A stretch of DNA of 64,000 nucleotides. It comes from Streptomyces sp. R44 (GTDB taxonomy: Bacteria; Actinomycetota; Actinomycetes; Streptomycetales; Streptomycetaceae). Every line of letters begins with the position of its first letter. Position 1 is the first letter of the stretch. The DNA lies in NCBI RefSeq assembly GCF_041053105.1, contig NZ_CP163444.1, forward strand, positions 2,728,001 through 2,792,000. Direction: 5' to 3'. Below the pieces are notes generated by a model. That model was not told where the DNA came from, did not search any database, and was given only the letters and a program-made list of their open reading frames with translations. This document shows positions 11,106-56,962 of the stretch, in pieces. The position numbers were made by a program, and so were the translations under genes.

Positions 11106-11625
11106 ACGCTCTGACCTCGTAGGCCGTCTGCGGAACCCAGGTCCCCCGCCCCGGGTACGTCTCGAACTCCCCCGTCTCCCCGCACTCCGCCGACTGGTAC
11201 GTGGTGACCGGCCGCCCCGTGCGGTTCGCGAGGGACTGGGCCGAGGTGCCCGGCGGCAGGGCGACGCAGCTGTCGATGTCGGTCGTGGCCAGCTCGTGCG
11301 TCCACGGCCTGCCCTTGAAGTCGGGCTTGGGCCAGAGACAGAGCCGGCCCGGTCCGCAGGCCCCGAGGGCGGTGCCCCCGGCGGGTGCGGCGCTCGCGGC
11401 GGGTGCGGCGCTCGCGGGCACGGCGAGGAGGGTGGTCAGGACCGCCGCGACCGCCAGAGCCGTCTTTGTCAGAGCCGCCTTCGGCAGAGCCGTCTTCGGC
11501 AGAGCCGTCTTCGGCAGAGCCGTCTTCGGCAGAGCCGTCTTCGGCCGAGCCGTCTTCGGCCGAGCCGCCTTCGGCAGAGCCGCCTTCGGCAGAGCCGTCT
11601 TCGGCAGAGTCGTCTTCGTATACAT
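11086..11625 (-). CDS. Secreted peptidase inhibitor I36-like protein with pentapeptide-repeat signal n-region
   Basis: A 179-residue exported protein. The mature part (from about residue 75) has the beta/gamma-crystallin-like I36 pattern: CGPGRLCLWPKPDFKGRPW, a DIDSC segment and an NRTGRPVTTY segment; four Cys could form two disulfides. I36 proteins include Streptomyces metalloprotease inhibitors, but many members are uncharacterised. The N-terminus is extraordinary: residues 3-57 are eleven pentapeptides of the type PKTAL/PKAAL, giving a very long Lys-rich n-region before the hydrophobic AVAAVLTTLLAVPASA core and signal cleavage. It starts at ATG 11625; GTG 11649 is an alternative. It converges on the potassium channel gene. 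Confidence 0.8.
   Translation of the reverse strand: MYTKTTLPKTALPKAALPKAARPKTARPKTALPKTALPKTALPKTALPKAALTKTALAVAAVLTTLLAVPASAAPAASAAPAGGTALGACGPGRLCLWPKPDFKGRPWTHELATTDIDSCVALPPGTSAQSLANRTGRPVTTYQSAECGETGEFETYPGRGTWVPQTAYEVRAFKLWER
11460..11621. repeat. 15-bp tandem repeat (about 11 copies) in signal peptide region
   Basis: Copies of GTCTTCGGCAGAGCC and single-base variants run head to tail. On the minus strand each encodes PKTAL or PKAAL. Several neighbouring copies are identical, indicating recent expansion, and all keep the frame. Confidence 0.93.
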
Positions 11626-33596: not shown

Positions 33597-34628
<1,032 letters not shown>

Positions 34629-34686
34629 GCACACCGGATCTTCCGGTAGCCGTTTTCCTCAGTACAGACACAAGAAGGAGCGCCAC

Positions 34687-34935
34687 ATGGCCGCCACCGA
34701 GAAGGAGATCGTCGACGGTCTCGCCGAGATCGTCAACGAGATCGCCGGCATCCCCGTCGAGGACGTCCAGCTGGACAAGTCCTTCACCGACGACCTGGAC
34801 GTCGACTCGCTGTCCATGGTCGAGGTCGTCGTCGCCGCCGAAGAGCGCTTCGACGTCAAGATCCCCGACGAGGACGTCAAGAACCTCAAGACCGTGGGCG
34901 ACGCCGCCGCCTACATCCTGAAGCACCAGGACTGA
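34687..34935 (+). CDS. acpP: Acyl carrier protein
   Basis: An 82-residue acidic carrier protein. The phosphopantetheine attachment site is Ser41 in DLDVDSLSMVEVV. It follows a strong AAGGAG site, 58 nt after fabH, consistent with the high translation expected for ACP. It carries growing acyl chains between FabD, FabH, FabF and the reductases. Standard length, no odd features. Confidence 0.98.
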   Translation: MAATEKEIVDGLAEIVNEIAGIPVEDVQLDKSFTDDLDVDSLSMVEVVVAAEERFDVKIPDEDVKNLKTVGDAAAYILKHQD

Positions 34936-35014
34936 TTCGGTCCTCGCTGACTCGGTTCGCCACCCGGCGGTGGCGCCGTATTTCGACCATCACACACGTG
35001 GAGAAAGAATTCCT

Positions 35015-36277
35015 GTGAGCTCGACCAATCGCACCGTGGTCGTCACCGGTCTCGGCGCAACCACACCGCTGGGTGGCGACTCCGCATCGACCTGGGAAGG
35101 TCTGATCGCGGGACGCTCCGGCGTCAAGCCCCTCGAGGGCGAGCGCTTCGCCGAACTGCCCGTCCAGATCGCGGCCCTCGCCGCGGTCGACCCCGGCGAC
35201 GTGCTGCCCCGCCCGCTGGCCCGCAAGCTGGACCGCTCGGCGCAGTTCGCGCTGATCGCGGCCCGTGAGGCGTGGGCCGACGCGGGCTACACCGGCCCGG
35301 CCGGTGAGGACGAGAAGATCGTGCCCGAGCGGCTCGGCTCCGTCATCGCCTCCGGCATCGGCGGTGTGACCACGCTGCTCGACCAGTACGACGTGCTGAA
35401 GGAGAAGGGCGTCCGCCGCGTCTCCCCGCACACCGTCCCCATGCTCATGCCCAACAGCCCCTCCGCGAACGTCGGCCTGGAGGTGAACGCCCGGGCGGGC
35501 GTCCACACCCCCGTCTCCGCGTGCGCGTCGGGTGCCGAGGCGATCGGCTACGCCGTCGAGATGATCCGTACCGGCCGTGCCGACGTGGTCGTCGCCGGCG
35601 GTACCGAGGCCGCGATCCACCCGCTGCCGATCGCCGCCTTCGCCAACATGATGGCGATGTCCAAGAACAACGACGAGCCGACGAAGGCCTCGCGTCCCTA
35701 CGACACCGGCCGCGACGGCTTCGTGCTCGGCGAGGGCGCGGGTGTCGTGATCCTGGAGTCCGAGGAGCACGCGAAGGCCCGCGGCGCCCGCATCTACTGC
35801 GAGGTGCTCGGCCAGGGTCTGTCGGCCGACAGCCACCACATCGCGCAGCCCGAGCCGACCGGCCGGGGCATCGCCGCCGCGATGCAGAACCTGCTGGACT
35901 CGACGGACCTCAAGCCGTCCGAGGTCGTCCACCTCAACGCGCACGCCACGTCGACGCCGCAGGGTGACGTCGCCGAGATCAAGGCGCTGCGGAAGGTCCT
36001 GGGCGACGACCTGGACCACGTCGCGATCTCCGCGACGAAGTCGATGACCGGTCACCTCCTGGGTGGCGCGGGCGGCATCGAGACCGTCGCGACGGTCCTG
36101 GCCCTCCACAACCGCCTGGCCCCGCCGACGATCAACGTCGACGACCTGGACCCGGACGTCGAGGCGGACATCGTCCGCGACGAGCCCCGCGAACTCCCGC
36201 AGGGCACGATCGCCGCGATCAACAACAGCTTCGGGTTCGGCGGCCACAACGTGGTGCTGGCGTTCCGCACCGTGTGA
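35015..36277 (+). CDS. fabF: Beta-ketoacyl-ACP synthase II
   Basis: A 420-residue elongating condensing enzyme. The active-site Cys170 is in VSACASGAE; the two His are in NAHATSTPQGD and SMTGHLLGGAGG, and the conserved NNSFGFGGHN loop is close to the C-terminus. It starts at GTG 35015 after GGAGAAAGAA. Last gene of the fab operon. Its final 18 codons (including the stop) plus the following hairpin are repeated seven more times downstream at near identity (see the array). The genuine copy differs from the repeats by GGG versus GGC for one Gly, so it can be told apart. Confidence 0.97.
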   Translation: MSSTNRTVVVTGLGATTPLGGDSASTWEGLIAGRSGVKPLEGERFAELPVQIAALAAVDPGDVLPRPLARKLDRSAQFALIAAREAWADAGYTGPAGEDEKIVPERLGSVIASGIGGVTTLLDQYDVLKEKGVRRVSPHTVPMLMPNSPSANVGLEVNARAGVHTPVSACASGAEAIGYAVEMIRTGRADVVVAGGTEAAIHPLPIAAFANMMAMSKNNDEPTKASRPYDTGRDGFVLGEGAGVVILESEEHAKARGARIYCEVLGQGLSADSHHIAQPEPTGRGIAAAMQNLLDSTDLKPSEVVHLNAHATSTPQGDVAEIKALRKVLGDDLDHVAISATKSMTGHLLGGAGGIETVATVLALHNRLAPPTINVDDLDPDVEADIVRDEPRELPQGTIAAINNSFGFGGHNVVLAFRTV

Positions 36278-37575
36278 CCCGCGACTGAACAGCGAGGCCC
36301 GCTCCCAGCACGGGGGCGGGCCTCCGCCGTACCCGCCGGACGGAGTCCGGCACAGCGTCCCGAAGCCCGCGAAGCGGTGCGAGGGGCGCACGAGGAAGAG
36401 GCCAACAGCTTCGGCTTCGGCGGCCACAACGTGGTGCTGGCGTTCCGCACCGTGTGACCCGCGCCTGAACAGCGAGGCCCGCTCCCAGCACGGGGGCGGG
36501 CCTCCGCCGTACCCGCCGGACGGAGTCCGGCACAGCGTCCCGAAGCCCGCGAAGCGGTGCGAGGGGCGCACGAGGAAGAGGCCAACAGCTTCGGCTTCGG
36601 CGGCCACAACGTGGTGCTGGCGTTCCGCACCGTGTGACCCGCGCCTGAACAGCGAGGCCCACTCCCAGCACGGGGGCGGGCCTCCGCCGTACCCGCCGGA
36701 CGGAGTCCGGCACAGCGTCCCGAAGCCCGCGAAGCGGTGCGAGGGGCACGAGGAGGAAGAGGCCAACAGCTTCGGCTTCGGCGGCCACAACGTGGTGCTG
36801 GCGTTCCGCACCGTGTGACCCGCGCCTGAACAGCGAGGCCCACTCCCAGCACGGGGGCGGGCCTCCGCCGTACCCGCCGGACGGAGTCCGGCACAGCGTC
36901 CCGAAGCCCGCGAAGCGGTGCGAGGGGCGCACGAGGAAGAAGCCAACAGCTTCGGCTTCGGCGGCCACAACGTGGTGCTGGCGTTCCGCACCGTGTGACC
37001 CGCGCCTGAACAGCGAGGCCCACTCCCAGCACGGGGGCGGGCCTCCGCCGTACCCGCCGGACGGAGTCCGGCACAGCGTCCCGAAGCCCGCGAAGCGGTG
37101 CGAGGGGCGCACGAGGAAGAGGCCAACAGCTTCGGCTTCGGCGGCCACAACGTGGTGCTGGCGTTCCGCACCGTGTGACCCGCGCCTGAACAGCGAGGCC
37201 CACTCCCAGCACGGGGGGCGGGCCTCCGCCGTACCCGGGACCCCGGCACAGCGTCCCGAAGCCCGCGAAGCGGTGCGAGGGGCGCACGAGGAAGAGGCCA
37301 ACAGCTTCGGCTTCGGCGGCCACAACGTGGTGCTGGCGGCACCGTGTGACCCGCGCCTGAACAGCGAGGCCCACCCCCCGGGGACGGGGACCGCCGTTCC
37401 CCCGCCGGACGGAGTCCGGCACAGCGTCCCGAAGCCCGCGAAGCGGTGCGAGGGGCGCACGAGGAAGAGGCCAACAGCTTCGGCTTCGGCGGCCACAACG
37501 TGGTGCTGGCGTTCCGCACCGTGTGACCCGCGCCTGAACAGCGAGGCCCACCCCCTGGTCGGGGGTGGGCCTTTC
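36224..37575. repeat. Tandem array of 8 fabF 3'-end + terminator modules (~180 bp unit)
   Basis: Modules begin (AACAGCTTCGG) at 36224 (the genuine fabF end), 36404, 36584, 36765, 36945, 37125, 37300 and 37473, giving periods of 180, 180, 181, 180, 180, 175 and 173 bp. Each carries the last 54 bp of fabF with its TGA. Modules 0-5 share a hairpin (first copy GAGGCCCGCTCCC at 36294-36306 pairing with GGGGGCGGGCCTC at 36312-36324), a second hairpin CCGGAC-GGA-GTCCGG in most, and a spacer. Copy 6 has a 4-bp deletion in the coding tail; copy 5 has a shortened second hairpin. Copy 7 ends in a canonical terminator. Units are nearly identical, implying recent or homogenised expansion. Confidence 0.97.
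37544..37575 (+). terminator. Final intrinsic terminator of the fab operon / array
   Basis: AGGCCCACCCCC, a TGGTC loop, GGGGGTGGGCCT and then TTCTCG: a perfect 12-bp stem followed by a short U-rich run. The same flanking bases (GCGCCTGAACAGCG) precede the hairpins of the upstream modules, so this is likely the ancestral fabF terminator. Confidence 0.85.
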
Positions 37576-37582
37576 TCGTGGG

Positions 37583-39082
37583 TCAGCGGAGGGCGAAGGC
37601 TGCCGGTTCGCCCTGGAGGAGGATCTGGTTGAGGACGACGTGGCCGCCGGGGACGGGGACCAGTTCCGGGTGGATGGAGACCGTCGGCCGCTTGCCCGCG
37701 TCGGGTTCGAGAACCCTGCGGACCTTGCCCGTCGAGCGGTCGAGGAGGGTGACGGAGGCGTCGAACCCCAGGTAGGCGACGCTGCCGTCGGGCTCCGCCG
37801 CGAGCGCCATCAGCTGTTCCTCGCTGTGGTGCGCCCATACCTTCCGGCCGTCCTTCAGGGAGTACGCGACGACCGTACTGGGCGAGATCGAGTCCTTCTC
37901 GGCGAAGGTGATGAGGAGGCCGTCGAGGACGAGCGGCCTGACGGTACGGCCGTCGGCCACGCTCCAGAGGGCGGAGAGGGCGCCCTCGGGGCCGGTGAGC
38001 GGCACGGTCGCGGTGGGGGCTCCCTCGTCGTCGAAGCCCAGGAAGGCGTGGGTACCGCGGGCGTCCGCCTCGTCGACGTCGACGACGACCGGGGAGACGG
38101 AGACCACCGACGCCCTGGCCGCCGACTCGACGGGCAGGTCCCGGGTCCACCGCCGGTCTCCGGTACGGGTGTCCAGGGCGACCAGCCGTGCGCCCTTGCC
38201 GCACTGCTCGACGAGGCGGGTACGGGTGGCGTCGGCGTCGAGCGCGAGGACCGTGCAGTCCTTGCCGAGCCGGCGCTGCCAGCGTTGTTCTCCGGTCTCG
38301 GTGGACCGGCCCCGTACGGCTCCGTCCTCGGCGGTGACGGCGGTGGCGCCGCCGACGGCGAGCGCGCCGCCGTCGAGACCCTCGCCGCCGAGTTGCCGCT
38401 TCCACAGGACCTTGCCGTCCGAGGCGCGGACGGCGAGCAGGGTCGCGCAGGGCTTCTCGTACCGGCCGTGCGCGACCAGGCCCACGCCCTCTCCGGTCTT
38501 CGGGGACATGGCGCAGAGCGCCTCGCGTGGGGGCGCGGGCACGCTCCAGCGGAGGGAGCCGTCGGCGGAGTCGTAGGCGAAGAGTCCGTCGATCCGTCCG
38601 TGGGCGACGGTGGGGCCGAGGCCCCAGGAGCCGACGCCCTTGTCGCCCCTCTGACCGGCGGCCGGGACCAACCACCCGACGGAGGGCTTCGCGTCGGAGG
38701 ACGCCGAGGGTTTCGCGGGCGCCCCGGCCTCGGTGCCGTCCCCGGCCTCGGTGTCGTCCCCGGCCGTGAGCGTCCAGATGCCGCCGGCGAGGAGGGCGAG
38801 CGCCCAGACCACGGCGGCGGCGACGAGCGAGGACCGGCCGGGCCGTACGGGTTTCACGGCAGCGTCGTGCTCGGCGAGGTCCGAAACCGCGTCCCGTACC
38901 TCCTCCGGGGCCTCGGAGTCCCTACCGCGCCGCCGTACCGCGAGGAGCGTCGTCCCCACCGCCCCGCACGCGAGGGCGCACACGAGCGCCGCCCAGCCCG
39001 TCGGCCAGGCACCGCCGGCGACACCCGCCCCCAGGAAGACCGCCGCCGCGCCGAACGCGGCGCCCGGTGTACCGTCACGCAT
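37583..39082 (-). CDS. PQQ-type beta-propeller membrane protein
   Basis: A 499-residue protein. The N-terminal part has two to three hydrophobic segments (about residues 10-50 and 85-110) separated by a basic/acidic cytoplasmic loop, then a linker rich in Ala, Glu and Gly. The rest is a PQQ/YncE-like repeat beta-propeller: VGSWGLGPTV, DSADGSLRWSVP, DGKVLWKRQL, STETGEQRWQRRL, DTRTGDRRWTRDL and LKDGRKVWAHH are successive blades. The domain would face outside and bind a ligand or partner; no catalytic residues are recognised. ATG 39082 after GGGAGAA was preferred over GTG 39094. Convergent with the fab array. Confidence 0.85.
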   Translation of the reverse strand: MRDGTPGAAFGAAAVFLGAGVAGGAWPTGWAALVCALACGAVGTTLLAVRRRGRDSEAPEEVRDAVSDLAEHDAAVKPVRPGRSSLVAAAVVWALALLAGGIWTLTAGDDTEAGDGTEAGAPAKPSASSDAKPSVGWLVPAAGQRGDKGVGSWGLGPTVAHGRIDGLFAYDSADGSLRWSVPAPPREALCAMSPKTGEGVGLVAHGRYEKPCATLLAVRASDGKVLWKRQLGGEGLDGGALAVGGATAVTAEDGAVRGRSTETGEQRWQRRLGKDCTVLALDADATRTRLVEQCGKGARLVALDTRTGDRRWTRDLPVESAARASVVSVSPVVVDVDEADARGTHAFLGFDDEGAPTATVPLTGPEGALSALWSVADGRTVRPLVLDGLLITFAEKDSISPSTVVAYSLKDGRKVWAHHSEEQLMALAAEPDGSVAYLGFDASVTLLDRSTGKVRRVLEPDAGKRPTVSIHPELVPVPGGHVVLNQILLQGEPAAFALR

Positions 39083-39148
39083 CGCTTCTCCCACCCGGCG
39101 CGCCCCCTGCGCGCCCGCGCGGAATCTACAACCCGCTGGTGAAGGGCG

Positions 39149-39643
39149 TCAGACGACCTGGTGAAGCCAGCGGACGGGGGCGCCCTCGCCCGCGTACCGG
39201 AAAGGTTCCAGCTCGTCGTCCCAGGGCTTTCCGAGCAGCTTGGCGATCTCCGCCTCCAGCTGGGTCTCGCCCTGCGCGGAGCGGGCGAGGGCGGCCCGCA
39301 GCCGGTCCTCGGGGATCAGGATGTCCCCGTGCATGCCGGTGACGGCGTGGAAGATGCCCAGGTCGGGGGTGGCGCTGTAGCGCTCGCCCTCGGCCGTGGG
39401 GCAGGGCTCCGCGGTGACCTCGAAGCGGAGCATCTGCCAGCCGCGGAGCGCGGAGGCGAGTTTGGAGGCGGTGCCGGTCTGGCCCTGCCAGGAGAACTCG
39501 GCTCTCCAGGTGCCGGGGGACGCCGGCTGGCGGATCCAGTCGAGCTGGACCCTCGCACCGAGGACGCCCGCGACCGCCCATTCGACGTGCGGGCACAGCG
39601 CGCGCGGTGCGGAGTGTACGTACAGGACTCCACGTGTCGTCAC
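39149..39643 (-). CDS. DUF3145 family protein
   Basis: A 164-residue cytoplasmic protein of the actinobacterial DUF3145 family, starting VTTRGVLYVHSAPRALCPHVEWAV. The internal WIRQPASPGTWRAEFSWQGQTGTASKLASALRGW and the C-terminal EPFRYAGEGAPVRWLHQVV are the conserved blocks. The function is unknown; its position near the fab/accessory region is conserved in Streptomyces. It starts at GTG 39643, five nt after GGAGG; an upstream extension of the frame lacks support. About 260 bp upstream separates it from a divergent lipoprotein gene, holding both promoters. Confidence 0.9.
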   Translation of the reverse strand: MTTRGVLYVHSAPRALCPHVEWAVAGVLGARVQLDWIRQPASPGTWRAEFSWQGQTGTASKLASALRGWQMLRFEVTAEPCPTAEGERYSATPDLGIFHAVTGMHGDILIPEDRLRAALARSAQGETQLEAEIAKLLGKPWDDELEPFRYAGEGAPVRWLHQVV

Positions 39644-55786: not shown

Positions 55787-56962
55787 CTACACGCACCACC
55801 AGAGGAACCGGGTGCACGTCGGCTCCGGGCTGGGCGTCGGGCTCTGGCTCGGCGTGGGGCCGGTGGTCGACGGCCCGGGCGTACCGGGCGCACCCGAGCC
55901 GGTCGGCGCCGGGCCGCTCGCCGTCGGGGACGCGGTCGCGCCGGGCGGGGCGGACGGGGAGGCGGGTCCCGTGGTCGCCGGCGCGGTGGCCGGGGCGCCA
56001 CCGGTCCCCCGGCCGGCGCCGGAGCCGGCACCCGTGCCCGTACCGGAGCCCGTACCACTACCCGTACCCGAGCCGGATCCCGAGCCGCTGCTCACCTGGC
56101 GGGGGCGTGCGGGGACGGAGCTCGGTGCGTCCGTCGCCGGGGCCGGGCTCGTCCCCTCCGGCGTCTCGGAGGGCTCCGCGGGCGTGGGAGGCATCGGGGT
56201 CTCGGTGACCTCCAGCTCCTCGACGGCCGTGGCGGCGCCGTCCTGCGGCGGGTCATCGAGGGCGAGCTTCGCCAGGGTCAGCGTCCCGGCCGCGAGGACC
56301 AGCCCCACCGTTCCCACCAGGACCGTACGGCCCCGGCGCGAGCGCGAGCCCCTCCCCCGCCGGGCGGTGGAGCGGCCCCGCGAGGCGGCGCGACGCCCGC
56401 CGGGGGCGGGGCGCGGCGGTTCGAGGACGTCCAGCTCGAAGACGTGCTCGGGCGCGGGCCGGTCGGGGTCGTCGTGGTCCCCGGACGCCTCCGGGGGGTC
56501 GTAGGTCCCGGACGCGTCCGGGGGCACCGGCGCGTCCGGGGGCACCGATGTCCCGGGCGACTCGTAGATCGCGGGGCGCATCGGCTCACCGTAGACGCCG
56601 GGGCGGGGCGGCTCGCCGTAGGCCGATTGCCCGTTCGGCGCACCGTAGGCCGCCTGCCCGTTCGGCGCACCGTAGGCCGATTGCCCGTTCGGCGCACCGT
56701 AGGCCGCGGGCGCGGGCGGCCCGCCGTACGGCGCCGACTGGTTCTGCCCGCCGTACGGCGCGGCCTGGTTCTGCCCGCCGTACAGCGCGGACTGGTTCGG
56801 CGTCTCGTAGACCGCGGGCCGGGTCGGCCCGCCGTAGCTGTGGTCCGGGGTGTGGACCGGTATGTGGGGGGTCTCGTACCGCAGTTCCTCGACGGGAGTC
56901 CCGCACCCGGCACAGGCGAGGGCCCCGTTGAGATGCCGCCGGCACGCGTGGCAGTAGTCCAT
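55787..56962 (-). CDS. SCO2400-family zinc-ribbon membrane protein with 9-aa repeats
   Basis: A 391-residue protein: N-terminal zinc ribbon MDYCHACRRHLNGALACAGCG (two CxxC pairs), then a Pro/Tyr/Gln-rich region with two sets of tandem nonapeptides (YGAPNGQSA-type and YGGQNQAAP-type), an acidic stretch ending EHVFELDVLEPPRP, a basic RSTARRGRGSRSRRGR segment, one transmembrane helix (about 220-240) and a Ser/Gly/Pro-rich outer tail ending TRFLWWCV. From memory this is the streptomycete SCO2400 family, of unknown function. The layout, a cytosolic zinc finger and a mucin-like exterior, suggests a membrane sensor or scaffold. Confidence 0.85.
   Translation of the reverse strand: MDYCHACRRHLNGALACAGCGTPVEELRYETPHIPVHTPDHSYGGPTRPAVYETPNQSALYGGQNQAAPYGGQNQSAPYGGPPAPAAYGAPNGQSAYGAPNGQAAYGAPNGQSAYGEPPRPGVYGEPMRPAIYESPGTSVPPDAPVPPDASGTYDPPEASGDHDDPDRPAPEHVFELDVLEPPRPAPGGRRAASRGRSTARRGRGSRSRRGRTVLVGTVGLVLAAGTLTLAKLALDDPPQDGAATAVEELEVTETPMPPTPAEPSETPEGTSPAPATDAPSSVPARPRQVSSGSGSGSGTGSGTGSGTGTGAGSGAGRGTGGAPATAPATTGPASPSAPPGATASPTASGPAPTGSGAPGTPGPSTTGPTPSQSPTPSPEPTCTRFLWWCV
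56618..56805. repeat. 27-bp tandem repeats in the SCO2400-family gene
   Basis: Three 27-bp copies (56618-56644, 56645-56671, 56672-56698; one or two mismatches) encode YGAPNGQSA/A; after a gap, three more 27-bp units (from 56725, 56752, 56779) encode YGGQNQSAP-type nonapeptides. All preserve the frame. Confidence 0.9.

Follow-up and report, generated by a model that had tools for sequence, protein, structure and literature searches.

How did the 3' end of fabF in Streptomyces sp. R44 come to stand eight times in a row, and what lies between the copies? The window, that is, the whole stretch of 64,000 nucleotides that was analysed, contains behind fabF an array of eight gene tails (a number that rests on one assembly) and seven spacers, and each spacer is a copy of a structured element of about 72 nt, called E here. 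The tails start at positions 36224, 36404, 36584, 36765, 36945, 37125, 37300 and 37473, with spacings of 180, 180, 181, 180, 180, 175 and 173. An eight-unit array of fabF tails with a period of 173-181 bp had been described in the original prediction; it was recovered when the tail starts were re-derived, and Tandem Repeats Finder placed it at 36223-37572 with a period of 180, 7.6 copies, 95% matches and a score of 2440. The features of the locus are as follows.

35015..36277, + strand: fabF (3-oxoacyl-ACP synthase II), in the ORF 34970-36277; probable start at 35015, from the upstream GGAG
36222..36223, + strand: putative target junction in the genuine fabF, GATCAA^CAACAGC, the point at which every extra tail begins and abuts the 3' end of E (base bias seen across 39 distinct sites)
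36223..36331, + strand: genuine copy of the putative duplicated target, with the last 55 nt of fabF and the stop, a hairpin at 36294-36324 and a short spacer
36332..36403, + strand: E copy 1, two hairpins (fold; match to model R1, 88.3 bits)
36404..36511, + strand: tail and hairpin region, copy 2 (duplicated)
36512..36583, + strand: E copy 2 (88.3 bits)
36584..36691, + strand: tail and hairpin region, copy 3 (duplicated)
36692..36763, + strand: E copy 3 (79.8 bits)
36765..36872, + strand: tail and hairpin region, copy 4 (duplicated)
36873..36944, + strand: E copy 4 (88.0 bits)
36945..37052, + strand: tail and hairpin region, copy 5 (duplicated)
37053..37124, + strand: E copy 5 (88.3 bits)
37125..37230, + strand: tail and hairpin region, copy 6 (duplicated)
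37231..37299, + strand: E copy 6, first hairpin altered (65.0 bits; missed by the core pattern)
37300..37400, + strand: tail copy 7, with a 4-bp loss, a broken frame and an altered hairpin region
37401..37472, + strand: E copy 7 (88.3 bits)
37473..37576, + strand: last tail copy, hairpin at 37543-37573 followed by UUUCU, no E after it
37583..39094, - strand: convergent downstream ORF; the same neighbour stands behind fabF in relatives that lack E there (L011 and L012, by eye; match in genome G004)

Each tail copy comprises the last 54-55 nt or so of the gene and is followed by a GC-rich hairpin region. As predicted, six of the seven extra tails encode NSFGFGGHNVVLAFRTV followed by TGA, the exception being the tail at 37300, which has lost 4 bp and is out of frame. 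Homogenisation of the extra units among themselves, which had also been proposed, was borne out by a glycine codon that reads GGG in the genuine gene and GGC in all seven extra tails, and, stops aside, the fabF frame is indeed open across periods one and two, with a frame shift in the 181-bp period. When the hairpins of the first and last copies were folded, they gave z values of -3.80 and -5.34, respectively. The last copy consists of a tail and a hairpin with no E behind it and had been said to hold a canonical terminator; its hairpin does fold well, but "canonical" is too strong, because only UUUCU follows, partly inside the stem, and a simple terminator scan of window positions 34500-38500 found none. 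A sigma-70 promoter scan at the array was empty as well, and at a threshold of E<=1 no Rfam model matched window positions 34000-39500, so that no Rfam family was found for the element within that range. An orthologous fabF frame (locus L009) matches two ketoacyl-synthase domains. Elsewhere in the window there are two tandem repeats, one of a 15-bp unit present 10.9 times at 11455-11618 (93% matches) and one of a 27-bp unit present about ten times at 56563-56837 (76% matches).

Beyond what had been predicted, the spacer turned out to be a dispersed structured element, and gene tails are duplicated with it behind many unrelated genes too. E folds into two hairpins. In an RNAalifold consensus of 29 aligned copies, the first (CGGAC GGA GTCCG) is nearly invariant, and the second is longer and carries compensatory changes. 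For the covariation analysis, 109 model matches from 94 loci, hand-picked from 401, were aligned (99 distinct rows). Paired bases occupied 95.9% of cells, and both sides had changed in 194 cells compared to a shuffled mean of 62.3 (0/500 as high); with slid partners, pairing fell to 31-50% and double-changed cells to at most 36. Because the alignment had been fitted to the model, it is biased towards structure, but the gaps to both the shuffled and the slid controls are large. Single copies of E fold with z values of -2.7, -1.3 and -3.8. By eye, the stems mostly differ among the copies of one genome, so a recent donor copy is hard to name. We also considered a coding role for E and rejected it, because the start codon that lies ahead of the tail copy is, by eye, in frame at some loci and out of frame at others.

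The R44 genome has 15 model matches of E in five places, namely the fabF array (7), a second array behind the methionine aminopeptidase gene map (5) and three single copies. The map array lies outside the window at G000:C1:5134314-5135198 and contains five E units with a period of 198-200 bp. The single copies stand behind an OmpR-type response regulator, an ORF with a near-DUF3099 tail (compare locus L329) and what we take from its sequence to be an LLM-type oxidoreductase. Target duplication is present at three of the five places. When the fabF unit was searched in 295 genomes of the genus, fabF tails proved widespread, the spacer also matched outside fabF, and G238, G249 and G098 showed partial arrays at that gene. 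With the E model (E<=1e-4), 121 genomes of the genus were searched: 38 contained 1 to 23 copies each (maximum in G089) and 83 had none. Across the order, 63 of 197 genomes were positive, in two of six genera, the second of which belongs to the same family; across the class, the five positive genomes among 197 were all from the genus of R44. A pattern scan of species genomes returned at least 120 stretches, and all 80 listed came from Streptomyces, Actinacidiphila, Streptacidiphilus or Streptantibioticus, all of the Streptomycetaceae; S. lavendulae and S. canus are among the carriers. As seen so far, E is confined to this family. No match was obtained by blastn of the fabF E against plasmids and phages, nor by the exact E pattern in viral contigs.

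The original prediction had called for a search of the fabF 3' ends of other streptomycetes, and these carry E in one or three copies in some cases and lack it in others. It had also suggested a locus of mutable copy number, and this is likely given that 18 other arrays, with 2 to 6 E cores each, occur among the fetched loci. The largest fetched array after that of R44 fabF is found in Streptomyces lilacinus (L278, positions 75-761), with six E units at a 120-bp period.

In E-rich genomes, E is often the 3'-terminal part of a longer repeat, and its own 3' edge is sharp. Where 700 nt were read, the shared 5' extension ranged from 4 to 686 nt. Twelve copies of genome G089, read 5 kb upstream, share about 400-780 nt, and directly beyond that they have nothing in common. 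These dispersed repeats (L386-L397) consist of hairpin-rich modules ending in E and are apparently non-coding intergenic mosaics. A full-length coding element was rejected on this basis, as the shared part ends at about 400-780 nt and looks non-coding on reading. At four loci (L128, L146, L176 and L187), the 3' terminal piece of E appears by eye to be tandemly repeated right behind E.

To quantify the gene-end duplication, we used 224 distinct copies, which are all those found by the locator pattern with 120 nt on each side, array-internal copies included. They are not a random sample, since they combine the loci that best match the fabF unit, five E-rich genomes with most or all of their copies, and the listed matches of the pattern scan; the locator pattern missed 19 of 136 loci in one set. 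A direct repeat flanking E (256 nt before against 186 nt after, score >=40) was present at 108 of the 224, compared to 20 of 3000 unrelated pairings and 3 of 224 copies tested with their own downstream sequence reversed. At the other 116, including all 20 located in G089, no such duplication is visible; these copies could be older ones, could have had a duplication and lost it, or could have another origin. Measured from the E core, the right repeat begins at a constant distance, which corresponds to the 3' end of E: among 108 repeats scoring >=36, offsets of 14-17 were observed in 49, of 24-27 in 27 (where the locator took an earlier motif) and of 0-1 in 16 (array-internal copies). Duplication lengths run from 21 to more than 100 bp, the longest values including array-internal copies.

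The left gene, called heuristically by codon-position GC, is in sense orientation at 113 copies, antisense at 15 and uncalled at 96, and 70 of the 224 copies lie between convergent genes. Among the 74 duplicated copies with a sense left gene, 69 have a repeat that begins within the coding region and 62 one that runs across the stop, with a median of 59 coding nt. Pfam families were assigned to 16 of 19 upstream proteins (none for L166, L069 and L252). The families of upstream genes are thiolase, two-domain ABC ATPase, enoyl-ACP reductase, PNPOx, MoaE, M24 peptidase (map), fumarase, acyltransferase, SpoU methylase, prephenate dehydrogenase, Obg, pyridine nucleotide-disulphide oxidoreductase, UDP-glucose dehydrogenase, DUF3099, OmpR-type response regulator and fabF. 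In a few cases (L063 and L018, by eye), the 5' end of a gene is duplicated instead of a 3' end. At L063, L078, L205, L229, L285 and L316, from several species, E stands by the 5' end of one seemingly conserved gene whose start lies in the duplicated part. The right copy is closest to its own left copy in 16 of 17 cases for the regulator, 8 of 8 for map, 5 of 5 for PNPOx, 5 of 6 for fabF and 8 of 14 for the acyltransferase, which indicates that right copies are recent or have been homogenised within arrays.

The point at which the right repeat joins E is biased in base composition. After filtering, 76 junctions remained, some of them off by 1-2 bases through chance identity; the counts below are over 39 distinct sites. 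Under a null computed with the condition imposed by the aligner, an A precedes the junction in 26 of the 39 (null mean 8.5), and A^C or A^T occurs at 20 (null 4.6), in both cases with none of 20,000 resamplings as high. A G before the A, at 21 sites against 14.4 expected (433/20,000 resamplings), is a much weaker preference. At the 13 sites with no A before the junction, some look shifted by 1-2 bases through chance identity. No clear motif marks the left edge of the duplication, where divergence blurs the boundary. At fabF, the junction is GATCAA^CAACAGC in R44, L108 and L286, GATCAA^CAACTCG in L015 and GGTCAA^CAACTCC in L109, and in L009 its start is blurred by a base change. E lies about 6 nt or less from the fabF stop in G098, ahead of the terminator, and behind a terminator-like hairpin in the other fabF cases, while the 3' junction is identical. 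Several genes have more than one junction point (four in map, two each in the regulator, acyltransferase and fumarase genes), which favours repeated insertion over a single ancestral event.

Corresponding sites with no E are also present in relatives. The fabF genes of L011 (genome G268) and L012 (G004) have a single tail with a single hairpin, are followed by the convergent neighbour seen in R44 and carry no E. For a dispersed long copy in G074, both flanks were found in the relatives G012 and G017 with no E core between them, and G012 has other repeat pieces at this site. In a fabF tree, E occurs in 5 of 24 rows, scattered on unresolved branches, and is absent from the other 19; since 16 of the 21 inner branches are open, the tree is too weak to separate an old insertion followed by losses from repeated insertions.

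We consider it probable that the array arose by insertion of E, a non-coding dispersed element, at the 3' end of fabF with a long and variable target duplication, followed by VNTR-like tandem amplification. The fixed 3' end of E would join the target at a point that in fabF lies 55 nt ahead of the gene's end (GATCAA^CAACAGC), and a second break further downstream, past the stop codon or the terminator, would duplicate the segment between the two breaks (X) and yield the order gene-X-E-X. The left X would keep the gene whole, and the right X would remain as a dead tail before the native downstream sequence. The resulting direct repeats of about 105 bp could then recombine or slip, so that an array (X-E)n-X grows, shrinks and has its units homogenised. 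A single enzymatic insertion event would thus create the duplication, and exchange or slippage would expand the array. Insertion with a long staggered duplication is the simplest account because it covers the X-E-X order, the fixed right junction, the base bias at the junction, the intact left gene and the termination of the array in X. Its chief weakness is that about half of the copies have no visible duplication; the 13 of 39 sites with no preceding A, the mostly different stems among copies of one genome, the negative result for plasmids, phages and viral contigs and the want of a convincing transposase or reverse transcriptase partner also weigh against it.

A different reading, which we regard as unlikely, is that E is a resident structure of the 3' UTR in RNA or DNA. 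Replication forks would stall at its hairpins, and the new strand would re-anneal upstream and copy the gene end again, with no transposition at each locus. Such slippage fits the strong folding and covariation of E, the ratio of sense to antisense among called left genes (113 to 15), the many sizes of tandem arrays, the recent or homogenised right copies and the roughly half of E copies with no duplication. However, simple slippage of X-E predicts a terminal E, and the fabF array instead ends with X and the downstream sequence; a fixed start beside an A over 39 distinct sites would be unexpected as well, and E-less sites exist.

It is improbable that the array is a functional device for staged termination, 3'-end processing or supply of small RNAs in the fatty-acid operon. 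The strong hairpins of the two folded copies, the 70 of 224 E copies between convergent genes and the covariation, as a sign that structure is kept, speak for such a role; on the other hand, the module stands behind many unrelated genes (map, fumarase, obg, thiolase and others), which speaks against a role specific to fabF. E is also missing from 19 of the 24 fabF loci placed in the tree, and copy number varies.

We think it very improbable that the units are left over from integrative elements which recombined at the 3' ends of genes and accreted in tandem, X being the identity block of their attachment site. Integration that restores the gene's 3' end and leaves direct repeats would give the same X-E-X picture, and the junction point at a given gene does recur across species. 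One recombinase should use one attachment sequence, yet X varies by gene with no common attachment core, and no plasmid, phage or viral match was obtained. Assembly duplication is a very unlikely source, because the copies carry private substitutions and small indels and the R44 assembly is one contig of 8.89 Mb, and analogous arrays are found in other genomes.

Returning to insertion of E, we looked for an enzyme that might serve as its partner. Of the 38 genomes with E, 18 have a reverse transcriptase domain (RVT_1, PF00078), as do 29 of the 83 others (cross counts by eye); among the five genomes with at least ten E copies, only one has it. None was found at E<=1e-6 in R44, G074, G089 and G098, where PF00078 may miss very divergent reverse transcriptases. 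For the Y1 transposase domain, the figures were 14 of the 38 and 16 of the 83 (again by eye), with no match in R44, G074 and G089. Neither domain tracked E convincingly. A more specific version of the insertion reading, which we hold to be doubtful, is that E is a bacterial counterpart of SINEs, a structured non-autonomous RNA that would be copied into DNA at a nick beside an A, duplicating the ends of housekeeping genes throughout the Streptomycetaceae and seeding VNTR arrays like that at fabF. The fixed 3' end, the frequent 5' truncation and the long variable target duplications would all be part of this reading.

Direct repeats of bacterial mobile elements usually measure about 2 to 14 bp. 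A family-wide element with duplications of 21 to more than 100 bp in about half of its copies, and with the gene left whole, would point to an unusual insertion chemistry, and we know of none of this kind in bacteria. Insertion of E would also account for a group of tandem arrays found downstream of housekeeping genes. E arrays would be a candidate strain-typing marker for Streptomyces, and annotators and engineers would need to watch for repeats that recombine behind genes such as fabF and map.

No earlier description of such an array had been known at the time of the original prediction, and the literature search, as far as it went, agrees. It turned up no description of E, and the E core string did not occur in a text search of the literature. 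A survey of non-coding RNAs in 50 genomes (PMC11109978) presents 250 mobile or repeat candidates, as well as riboswitch-like motifs of Streptomyces. Like E, its mobile and repeat candidates are described there as covarying, structured, multi-copy repeats that possibly act as DNA, and E may be among the 250. One of them, MRSC-65-2, differs from E in having, as described there, a single long stem, a UYCCGG repeat and an occurrence in diverse phyla. Convergent Streptomyces genes with overlapping 3' transcripts are described in PMC3765725, and E is often found in such a setting. A search for Streptomyces names gave none in PMC2267715 and one in PMC1590033, within a reference.

Among known systems, E resembles REP and BIME sequences in being short, structured and extragenic, with many copies in some genomes, a frequent position behind genes and composite arrangements. 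As a short palindromic extragenic multi-copy sequence (15 matches in R44 and up to 23 in G089, with none in 83 of 121 genomes), it agrees with the description of REP. It differs in its two-hairpin module of about 72 nt, its target duplications of 21 to more than 100 bp and the A bias at its junction. REP/BIME elements are associated with RAYT (Y1) transposases. With LINE and SINE retroposons, for which target-primed reverse transcription is established in the case of eukaryotic non-LTR elements, E shares a fixed 3' end, a variable 5' extension, a long and variable target duplication, a base bias at the 3' junction and, in some copies, repeated 3' terminal pieces; it differs in that no reverse transcriptase is tied to it. 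MITEs are likewise small, non-coding and dispersed, and direct repeats flank about half of the E copies, but by eye the 29-copy consensus has no terminal inverted repeats at its ends, and the direct repeats of E are long and variable whereas those of MITEs are short and fixed. Finally, the mycobacterial MIRU/VNTR loci are also intergenic tandem arrays of a dispersed unit with copy numbers that vary between arrays. The unit of an E array, in contrast, is a duplicate of the neighbouring gene's end together with E, and its sequence therefore differs at each locus.
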